A stretch of 41,388 nucleotides of DNA from Candidatus Blackburnbacteria bacterium RIFCSPHIGHO2_01_FULL_43_15b (GTDB lineage Bacteria > Patescibacteriota > Microgenomatia > UBA8517 > UBA10165). The stretch spans positions 12,506-53,893 of the forward strand of contig MHBW01000003.1 in NCBI GenBank assembly GCA_001816385.1, read 5' to 3'. The position numbers and the translations under genes are program-made. The first letter of the stretch is position 1; each line of letters starts with the position of its first letter. The notes under the pieces were generated by a model. It did no database searches, was not told where the DNA came from, and saw only the letters and a program-made list of their open reading frames with translations. Below, in pieces: positions 29,170 through 41,317 of this stretch.

Positions 29170-29466
29170 TTATTTGTAAATTGCAAGAATATCGTCAAAC
29201 TTTACAAACAAGTATTCTTTGCTATTTATCTTCATTTCATTCCCTCCCCATTTTTTATAAATTACCCTATCTCCAACTTTGGCTGGACTTTGCCGCTTTG
29301 CACCACCATCAGTTACCTCTTCATCTCCAACGGCTAAAACTTTTCCGGATTGGGGTTTTTCCCCAGCTTTATCCGGCAAAACAATTCCTGAGGCAGTTTT
29401 TGTCTCTGCCTCTTCCGGCTCAAGAAGTAGATAACCGGCAGTTGGTTTCAAATTAATATCAGCCAT
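29170..29466 (-). CDS. groES: 10 kDa chaperonin GroES
   Basis: LKPTAGYLLLEPEEAETKTASGIVLPDKAGEKPQSGKVLAVGDEE...VGDRVIYKKWGGNEMKINSKEYLFVKFDDILAI. Confidence 0.95.
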   Translation of the reverse strand: MADINLKPTAGYLLLEPEEAETKTASGIVLPDKAGEKPQSGKVLAVGDEEVTDGGAKRQSPAKVGDRVIYKKWGGNEMKINSKEYLFVKFDDILAIYK

Positions 29467-29495
29467 AATTTGTCAGTTGTCCTTAGCGAGTGCTA

Positions 29496-29524
29496 GTGTA
29501 AACAATGTATTGTTGGCTTGTCAA
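29496..29524 (-). promoter_or_regulatory. groES promoter
   Basis: Minus strand TTGACA-17-TTACAC, with TAGCACTC (CIRCE half-site-like) at the predicted start. Confidence 0.6.
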
Positions 29525-29538
29525 GCCCCTGTTTAAAT

Positions 29539-29568
29539 TTGACATAGGCATACTCTTGATACTACAAT
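29539..29568 (+). promoter_or_regulatory. Sigma70-type promoter of leader/small gene cassette
   Basis: TTGACA-18-TACAAT. Confidence 0.65.
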
Positions 29569-29574
29569 ATACTT

Positions 29575-29712
29575 ACGAATGTCGAGCTTTAGTGTTTGGT
29601 TTACCGTCCTTCCACTTACTCTCCTTATTAAAAAGGAGCGGGAGGCCTGTAGCTAAATAGCTCAAAGCTAAAAAGCACAAGGGAACCTCCCAGAAGCGGG
29701 AGGTCTTTTTTT
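29575..29712 (+). ncRNA. Structured leader / attenuator-like RNA (or independent sRNA)
   Basis: Between promoter and terminator; hairpin CTCCTT/AAGGAG; GGGAGG (29640-29645) can pair with CCTCCC (29686-29691), competing with the terminator stem. Confidence 0.5.
29685..29712 (+). terminator. Intrinsic terminator
   Basis: ACCTCCC-AGAAGC-GGGAGGT then CTTTTTTT. Confidence 0.8.
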
Positions 29713-29745
29713 GCTGTGCAGCACACTACATACAAGGAGGTTGCC

Positions 29746-29997
29746 GTGATCGATCTAAAACGCGCTGATGAACTTGGGCTTGTCGTAGAAGGCGACTTCA
29801 CCGACATTCCCAAAACCGAGTTTGTTTCCTTCAGGACTCCGCAGGATCACGTAGCGGTAAGGGTTGTCCCTCAGGTGGTCCACACAAATATCGGGGTGTG
29901 CACTATCTTGATACCGCGTAAAGCGTTCGATCAAGAGTTGGTGGAGTGGATTCTGGACTCGGAACTGTCCTCCCCCGCCCTTCCTCGCCACTGGTAG
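29746..29997 (+). CDS. Orphan small protein (83 aa), unknown
   Basis: AAGGAGG SD 5 nt before GTG; MIDLKRADELGLVVEGDFTDIPKTEFVSFRTPQDHVAVRVVPQVVHTNIGVCTILIPRKAFDQELVEWILDSELSSPALPRHW; flanked by terminators on both sides. Confidence 0.65.
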   Translation: MIDLKRADELGLVVEGDFTDIPKTEFVSFRTPQDHVAVRVVPQVVHTNIGVCTILIPRKAFDQELVEWILDSELSSPALPRHW

Positions 29998-30008
29998 TCA
30001 CTGCCCAC

Positions 30009-30066
30009 GCTGGCTGCTCATGCCCTATCCCACCCAAGGGTACAAGCAGCCAGCTTTTCTTTTTTT
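30009..30066 (+). terminator. Intrinsic terminator
   Basis: GCTGGCTGCT ... AGCAGCCAGC followed by TTTTCTTTTTTT. Confidence 0.75.
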
Positions 30067-30817
30067 ATATGCACCCAAAACGGGGCCTAGTCTTTCCACA
30101 TCCAGGGCACATCTCGCCTTTTGCCACACGCACTACTCTTTGGCAATTTGGACACATTACACTATCGCCCAGCATAAACATCGCATCAAAAGCGTTTAGT
30201 GGACAACTCAATGGGTGTCCCCCATAGATTTGGGTATCGCCTCGGCGTATTGCTCTTAATATCTCTCTTTTCTCCAGCCAAACTTCTTTATTTCTTATCC
30301 TTTCCCATTCTTTATTAGGAAGTACTAAGTCTGCAAAATGCGTCCAGTGAACGGTAGTACCGTTTAAAAATATTGGCCTCTTCCTTCTCTCCAAGGCATC
30401 GCTTATCTCCGCTTCTTTTGCATATTCGGCAATGCCGTTTGCCGCGCCTACAAACTGTTCTGTTGAAATTTCGGATCGCAGGAATAGAACTGCAAAGTTA
30501 AAAGTAATTTTCCTGCCGTTCTCAGCAGTGTATATCTCTGTTCCAAGTATTTTGTGAGATTCGCAAGGATTAAGCGCCGGACTAAACCAGAAAACTGTAC
30601 CTTCAGTTTCTTTTCTAACCACATCTTCCAGGAAATCATAAGCTGCCATGTCTGGGGAATTTTCTTGGATACATGAACGGACAAGACATCTGTGGTTTGG
30701 AGAATACAAACCTTTCTCCGTCCACCATAAAACATAAGGATCAGCTACAAGGCGTGACTCGTGGGAAATTGAAGAGGCAAACTCAACAGATGAATATCGG
30801 CGCTCAGCGGTTATCAT
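30065..30817 (-). CDS. Uncharacterised protein with C-terminal zinc-ribbon-like motif
   Basis: 250 aa ORF, C-term VMCPNCQRVVRVAKGEMCPGCGKTRPRFGCI (CxxC...CxxC). Confidence 0.6.
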   Translation of the reverse strand: MITAERRYSSVEFASSISHESRLVADPYVLWWTEKGLYSPNHRCLVRSCIQENSPDMAAYDFLEDVVRKETEGTVFWFSPALNPCESHKILGTEIYTAENGRKITFNFAVLFLRSEISTEQFVGAANGIAEYAKEAEISDALERRKRPIFLNGTTVHWTHFADLVLPNKEWERIRNKEVWLEKREILRAIRRGDTQIYGGHPLSCPLNAFDAMFMLGDSVMCPNCQRVVRVAKGEMCPGCGKTRPRFGCI

Positions 30818-31196
30818 ATTTTCCTGCTCGGGATTCTTGGATTGCTAGTTTTCCGACTTTCCTTCGACTACGCTCAGGATTACGGTTGCGGCACAGTGCA
30901 GGAGTTACACCTGCTTCCTTTAGCACAATCTCTTTGACAACATACTACACAGAGAACACAACACAAAACAAGTGTTAAATTGGGGAAAGCATTTACTGGT
31001 TTAACCAACAATTCTCAACTGTAAACAGAAATCCCGGAAAAACCCAGTGGCCGTACTTTTTCTTTAAAGATGAATACACCGTTTGGTTTGTTTATCAAAT
31101 TATGTGGCAATGCGCCTGCGCGGCATCGGTGATATTTTCAATTTACTTTGTGCACCAATGGCTGGGTGCACTTTAGTCTGTACGTTTTATACAATT

Positions 31197-38621: not shown

Positions 38622-38654
38622 GATTTATACCAGATTATATCACAGATGAGAATG

Positions 38655-38739
38655 CGGAAGGGGTGGGACTCGAACCCACAAGCCCATTGCTGAGCGCTGG
38701 TTTTCAAGACCAGTTCCTTACCATTCGGAGCACCCTTCC
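38655..38739 (-). tRNA. tRNA-Ser (UGA)
   Basis: Anticodon stem-loop CTGGT-CTTGAAA-ACCAG, long variable arm, acceptor GGAAGGG/CCCTTCC-type. Confidence 0.92.
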
Positions 38740-38745
38740 ACAAAA

Positions 38746-38834
<89 letters not shown>

Positions 38835-38847
38835 AGATAATTACAGG

Positions 38848-38920
38848 CGCACTCGGGTGGATTCGAACCACCGACCTTAGGATCCGGAATCCTATGCTCT
38901 ATCCGCTGAGCTACAAGTGC
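38848..38920 (-). tRNA. tRNA-Arg (CCG)
   Basis: Anticodon stem-loop TAGGA-TTCCGGA-TCCTA; acceptor GCACTTG/CGAGTGC. Confidence 0.9.
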
Positions 38921-38929
38921 AAACAGTTG

Positions 38930-39014
38930 CGGAGGGTACAGGATTCGAACCTGTGGACGGCTATTCGCCGCCACGGCTTAGCAAGCCGCTCCATTACCGC
39001 TCTGGCAACCCTCC
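38930..39014 (-). tRNA. tRNA-Ser (GCU)
   Basis: Anticodon loop TTGCTAA, long variable arm, acceptor GGAGGGT/ACCCTCC. Confidence 0.9.
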
Positions 39015-40934: not shown

Positions 40935-40950
40935 GCAAATTACCACCCAG

Positions 40951-41317
40951 GGGATGATAGGCATCGACGGGAAAGTACTTTAACACGTTGCAAGCCGAGT
41001 TTGACTAACAACTCGTTAAACAATAGTCAAAAATATAAAAGGCACGGGTCAAACCGAAGCCCGAGCTTATAATTACGCATTCGCGTAATATAGCTCGCAT
41101 CCGCACACTATGTGTCTGGTCGTAATGTGTTGGGTGTCAACTGATAACCCAGAACGCAACCAGTAACCTGATCAGTACCGGCCAAGCCTTGATCTTTGCT
41201 TGGAAACTAACTTTGGTTTGCTAGAGAGTTTCCCGGCGAGAATAATTAGCAAAATAAGCTTGTAGACACGTTTAAAAATCTTGCTCGGATGAGGGTTCAA
41301 CTCCCTCCATCTCCACA
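40951..41317 (+). ncRNA. ssrA: tmRNA
   Basis: 5' GGGGATGATAGGCATCGACGGG; 3' GAGGGTTCAACTCCCTCCATCTCCA pairing with the 5' acceptor; adjacent to smpB; tag ORF ending YNYAFA*. Confidence 0.93.

Follow-up and report, generated by a model that had tools for sequence, protein, structure and literature searches.

A cassette on the plus strand at 29539-30066 of the window, the stretch of 41,388 nucleotides analysed here, very probably encodes a ribosome-mediated transcription attenuator that would respond to scarcity of charged branched-chain tRNA, leucyl-tRNA being the likeliest, by turning on a small orphan gene. The anatomy of the element, the conservation of the leader frame in a relative from another genus (G001, Candidatus Blackburnbacteria, JACPEJ010000001.1), the logic of the stall positions and the match between codons and targets across a wider family were all computed; that the leader is translated and ribosomes stall on it, which amino acid it senses in this genome and what the orphan product might do are what we infer. 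The window comes from G000, a genome of 904,670 bases in 35 contigs that is 96.8% complete, and the cassette is placed between groES (29170-29466, minus strand), from which it diverges, and a gene for a 250-aa zinc-ribbon-like protein (30065-30817, minus strand). Directly upstream of the latter gene, which has distant relatives only, lies an Rfam cobalamin riboswitch aptamer (30826-30976, minus strand; 34.3 bits against a gathering score of 31.5) that keeps much of its conserved core, pointing, in this lineage, to a near-orphan gene with a B12 riboswitch. The window also carries a tight cluster of tRNA genes for Ser (TGA, GGA, GCT) and Arg (CCG) at 38654-39014, and a tmRNA at 40950-41316.

All the features named in the original prediction, that is, the promoter, the GGGAGG word, the terminator, the Shine-Dalgarno sequence with its GTG, the 83-aa ORF and the second terminator, were found where it had placed them, but a leader-peptide ORF of 25 codons (29579-29656, plus strand) had been overlooked, and once this ORF is counted the leader has the anatomy of a classic 1:2 / 2:3 / 3:4 attenuator. 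The cassette opens with a sigma-70-type promoter, TTGACA-18-TACAAT (29539-29568; -35 at 29539-29544, -10 at 29563-29568), of which TTGAC and the -10 region, together with the block TATACTTAC[AG]AATG, are also present in G001. The leader ORF translates as MSSFSVWFTVLPLTLLIKKEREACS and ends at a TAA stop (29654-29656); its ATG (29579) lies 10 nt past the -10 hexamer and lacks a Shine-Dalgarno sequence, so that the leader peptide is almost leaderless, with a 5' UTR of probably about 4 nt. As in attenuators, this short ORF overlaps the first RNA strands. The putative regulatory codons 10-17 (29606-29629), GTC CTT CCA CTT ACT CTC CTT ATT (V L P L T L L I), specify Leu, Ile or Val at six of eight positions, and the aligned codons of G001 do likewise. 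Strand 1, CCTTCC (29608-29613), pairs in the minimum free energy fold with strand 2, GGGAGG(CCT) (29640-29648), in a protector hairpin capped by CTCCTT/AAGGAG; the equivalent of the 1:2 pairing in G001 is CTCTC(C):GGGGAG. Strand 2 is common to protector and antiterminator, its partner in the latter being strand 3, AGGGAACCTCCC (29680-29691), which also provides the left arm of an intrinsic terminator at 29685-29712 (ACCTCCC 29685-29691, AGAAGC 29692-29697, GGGAGGT 29698-29704, then C and T7 29706-29712) that is kept in G001 and in the family. The regulated gene (29746-29997, plus strand) follows, with the Shine-Dalgarno sequence AAGGAGG (29734-29740; GGGAGG in G001) 5 nt before its GTG, and it ends ahead of a terminator of its own (30009-30066; GCTGGCTGCT 30009-30018 / AAGCAGCCAGC 30044-30054, T-rich tail), so that the orphan is the only gene in the controlled unit; G001 also carries a hairpin after its small ORF.

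Ribosome-mediated attenuation is a textbook principle, and in this leader it would operate as follows. Judging by the -10 box, transcription would start about 4 nt ahead of the leader ORF, at whose nearly leaderless ATG a ribosome would load. With Leu, Ile and Val in ample supply, the ribosome would pass codons 10-17, reach the stop at 29654 and cover strand 2, and the 3:4 terminator would form; a stall within codons 10-17 would block strand 1 and leave strand 2 (GGGAGGCC) to pair with strand 3, which would prevent the terminator and permit readthrough into the 83-aa gene with its own strong Shine-Dalgarno sequence and terminator. If the leader were not translated at all, 1:2 would form and termination would be the default. 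Leucine is the most likely amino acid to be sensed, because four of the eight regulatory codons are Leu codons, all CTT or CTC, with Ile or Val as possible alternatives.

The leader of the window is more stable than all 200 of its dinucleotide shuffles (z -2.98) and that of G001 folds 7.3 sd below shuffles (z -7.3). In the best fold of the window, GGGAGG at 29640-29645 pairs upstream with CCTTCC at 29608-29613, the CCTCCC of the terminator (29686-29691) being the alternative partner; this second pairing is feasible and can be lengthened by GCC(U) against AGGGAA. In the stall model the ribosome was set codon by codon with an assumed footprint of 14 nt that begins at the first base of the codon in the A site, and the RNA before strand 4 was folded: a ribosome stalled at codons 1-17 allows 8-9 antiterminator pairs, from codon 18 onward none form, and the regulatory stretch thus ends exactly where stalling ceases to free strand 2 in the model, a placement at which a stall blocks strand 1 and not strand 2. 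An automatic scan with a broader strand 3 places the loss of the antiterminator at codons 19-20 in the window and 21-22 in G001. Taken by itself, the antiterminator of the window is marginal against shuffles and not significant (p about 0.10), and it becomes convincing through its homologues; with one close homologue, the base pairs of the window itself show little covariation, and the pairing of strand 1 with strand 4 given by RNAalifold on the two-sequence alignment is an artefact of the repeated CCTCCC and GGGAGG words. The claim that antiterminator and terminator exclude each other finds support in the folds of the window and of G001, and in 58 of 59 further loci of the class.

The leader also holds W7 and F8, and stalls there would free strand 2 as well in the folding model. 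On an alternative reading, the attenuator would respond to tryptophan or phenylalanine, to a ribosome-targeting drug or to general translation stress. A leader from another family (L042) has SVW in its peptide too, and drug-resistance leader peptides have a similar anatomy according to excerpts of PMC6851288 and PMC4191407. Such a signal is nevertheless unlikely, since the G001 leader contains neither W nor F, the codons adjacent to the cut-off read V L P L T L L I in the window and N L S I V L L L in G001, and the validated leaders of the class have their regulatory run right before the cut-off; in 20 other leaders, too, the run lies just before the antiterminator is lost. A branched-chain amino acid is accordingly retained as the preferred signal.

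G001 is the closest relative with the same cassette, which lies at groES, upstream and divergent, with its parts in the same order as in the window: TTGAC.., TATAATATACTTACAAATG, a hairpin, GGGAACCTCCCC-GGGAGGTTTTTT, GGGAGG-ATG, a 73-aa ORF and a hairpin. Its leader, MQGLSINTINLSIVLLLKKDGETLAS, shares the frame and the TAA stop of the window leader with a single 3-nt gap, and positions 11, 13, 15, 16 and 17 are Leu, Ile or Val in both despite codon changes (CTT/ATC, ATT/CTT). An open frame with a 6/8 Leu/Ile/Val stretch arises in 0.5% of dinucleotide shuffles of the window and 0.2% of those of G001. The groES locus of four other genomes of the family showed no such cassette, and one of these (G002) has a branched-chain-type leader elsewhere, ahead of an unrelated 84-aa ORF. 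Other short DNA matches in relatives were attributed to chance; a pattern scan of genome contigs returned the record of G001 itself and two presumed chance matches in unrelated bacteria, and two pattern matches in viral contigs were not matched by the covariance model R1 described below. The original prediction had named a leader always separate from the ORF as the outcome that would favour a standalone small RNA; in G001 the leader and the gene with its Shine-Dalgarno sequence occur together, and across the class almost all the loci read have a gene behind the terminator. This persistent linkage makes it very improbable that the leader is a stand-alone small RNA, or the gene of a small membrane peptide, adjoining an unrelated orphan, even though the RNA ending at the terminator, about 137 nt long, would be stable and part of the leader peptide is hydrophobic.

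A search with Rfam 15, at gathering and lax thresholds, found no leader, T-box or riboswitch class in the window leader or in 13 relatives, and no known aptamer class within 29460-30070, in agreement with the earlier statement that the leader could not be matched to any riboswitch class. The best Rfam match by layout is Phe_leader (RF01859), of which the window is not a member (19.8 bits against a gathering score of 55, E = 1). The terminator/antiterminator layout and the stable leader fold would also suit a metabolite riboswitch with an aptamer within 29575-29680; the conserved part, however, is an open frame whose single indel is a multiple of three, and related leaders change their amino-acid run with the downstream gene and keep no aptamer, so that a riboswitch has very little probability. 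The original prediction had likened the element to attenuators and riboswitches alike, and it is the attenuator, with its leader ORF and codon run, that is supported, not the riboswitch.

The covariance search across Candidate Phyla Radiation genomes that had been proposed revealed a class-wide leader family. Searched against 58 genomes of the order, model R1, built from the leaders of the window and G001 only, gives matches at E <= 1 in 24; most of these matches read as attenuators, and some weak ones (e.g. L058, L061, L062) are clearly due to chance. Similar full-length leaders found in this way include MNIRKNKIVLVCCCSHF (CCC) before cysK, MNSCLNSKWFRHYVA (W) before a 71-aa ORF and then trpS, and MNLNITMIDSKKKTAS (KKK) before a 66-aa ORF and then lysS, and further ones carry Phe, Thr or Leu/Ile/Val runs ahead of unannotated genes. 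Model R2 was built from eight branched-chain-type leaders, the window included, so that its score at the window is not independent evidence; it matches 149 of 382 genomes of the class at E <= 0.01, whereas in a phylum-wide draw of 382 genomes it has matches in only eight at E <= 0.001, and six of these belong to the same class, in which the family is therefore concentrated. Leu/Ile/Val leaders precede acetolactate synthase ilvB (L102), dihydroxy-acid dehydratase ilvD (L106, L121, L155), 2-isopropylmalate synthase leuA (L103, L122 and, by Pfam, L124, L126, L160, L163) and the branched-chain transaminase ilvE (L092). The correspondence extends to an FYFYFYF leader before DAHP synthase (L167, Pfam), a similar one before L164 (a DAHP synthase by eye only, NCBIfam giving no match at the 1e-40 cut), an SSSS leader before a phosphoglycerate dehydrogenase fusion of the serine pathway (L161), a CCTTT leader before a 64-aa ORF and then thrS (L152), and a CCC leader before a cysteine-synthase-like gene (L154). 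In all 59 further complete loci of the class the leader ORF ends ahead of the terminator, and in 58 of them a stalled ribosome frees the antiterminator; as the ATG and the terminator form part of the models that picked these loci, the ORF count is partly built in, which does not hold for the codon-gene match. Pairing between leader and strand 3 exceeds that of shuffles over the 20 other leaders (Fisher p about 1e-22, a value that is indicative only, as the loci are related).

Some additional features of the family were recorded. Between the attenuator and a tRNA synthetase gene there is a small ORF of 64-71 aa in the cases of thrS (L152), lysS (L078) and trpS (L057), with a strong Shine-Dalgarno sequence in two of the three (L152, L078). 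In G049:C9 (L050, L068) and G030:C13 (L051, L069) a Phe-type attenuator and a branched-chain-type one are separated by 1-2 kb, each preceding a large uncharacterised protein, one of them weakly like the glutamate-cysteine ligase GCS2, and these paired loci may represent an amino-acid-controlled cluster of peptide or amino-acid ligases. The leader peptide type MKKMVLFYIILLFIVLV recurs (L110 and L111 in G335, L101 and L112 in G295, L115, L118), with several near-identical copies per genome ahead of differing uncharacterised proteins, as a multi-copy attenuator, and the aromatic leaders NYWYDRP and LFWFYYTF precede genes of the Asp/Glu racemase family (L046, L134).

The target in the window is the orphan and not a branched-chain gene, whereas many targets in relatives fit the metabolism of the sensed amino acid. 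The description of the 83-aa gene as an orphan holds: with the exception of the syntenic G001 ORF, no homologue, family or structure was found for its protein in Pfam, PHROGs, NCBIfam, PDB, phages, 58 relatives and 85,462 genomes, and its likeness to that 73-aa counterpart is confined to the N-termini (MIDLKRADELGLVVEGDF / MLRPDEARQFGLLVEGRF). An AlphaFold model from the two-sequence alignment is not interpretable (pLDDT 41), and all-against-all BLAST of the orphans behind 34 attenuators revealed no shared family. The gene ilvD, a key gene of branched-chain amino acid synthesis, was not found in G000 or in five other genomes of the family that were searched, and those members of the class with an attenuator before ilvD do have the gene; its apparent absence, a single gene in a genome of this completeness, suggests that the organism is probably a branched-chain auxotroph.

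The leu, ilv, phe, thr and his attenuators of enterobacteria, and that of ilvBNC in Corynebacterium, have the same short leader peptide, regulatory codons, protector, antiterminator and terminator strands and stall logic, and the class at large shows the same pairs of amino acid and gene (leuA, ilvB, ilvD, cysK). The window differs from these systems in its Candidate Phyla Radiation host, in a leader ATG 10 nt after the -10 box without a Shine-Dalgarno sequence, and in its target, an orphan of 83 aa in a genome where no ilvD was detected. In Staphylococcus aureus, a Leu-rich leader peptide likewise governs transcription beyond the ilv-leu attenuator, which, unlike that of the window, controls biosynthesis (excerpts of PMC5794164); the likeness is one of layout, and no sequence relation is expected. 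What is new relative to known attenuators is thus the combination of a nearly leaderless leader ORF with an orphan target in a probable auxotroph. No description of the family in the Candidate Phyla Radiation appeared in the literature searched, with subscription journals and preprints outside the search, and it looks like an undescribed class-wide family of leader-peptide switches in these ultra-small bacteria.

As to the wider meaning, a tentative proposal, which may well not hold, is that auxotrophs of the class use amino-acid-specific leader-peptide attenuators, derived from or shared with biosynthetic operons, as a main means of nutrient sensing, and that these drive fast-evolving small orphan proteins of the starvation response, the 83-aa gene of the window among them; such proteins might, for instance, help in attaching to a host, in uptake or in the hibernation of ribosomes. 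Gene regulation is very poorly understood in bacteria of the Candidate Phyla Radiation, and according to a 2024 review the mechanisms of differentiation between cell states in this group are completely unknown (PMC11665869). The class-wide attenuator family raises the question of why auxotrophs retain an amino-acid sensor, and it provides concrete testable signals, in the form of named amino acids, for otherwise unannotated genes; the nearly leaderless leader peptides, in turn, could be natural expression switches for the genetic tools that are emerging in these organisms.
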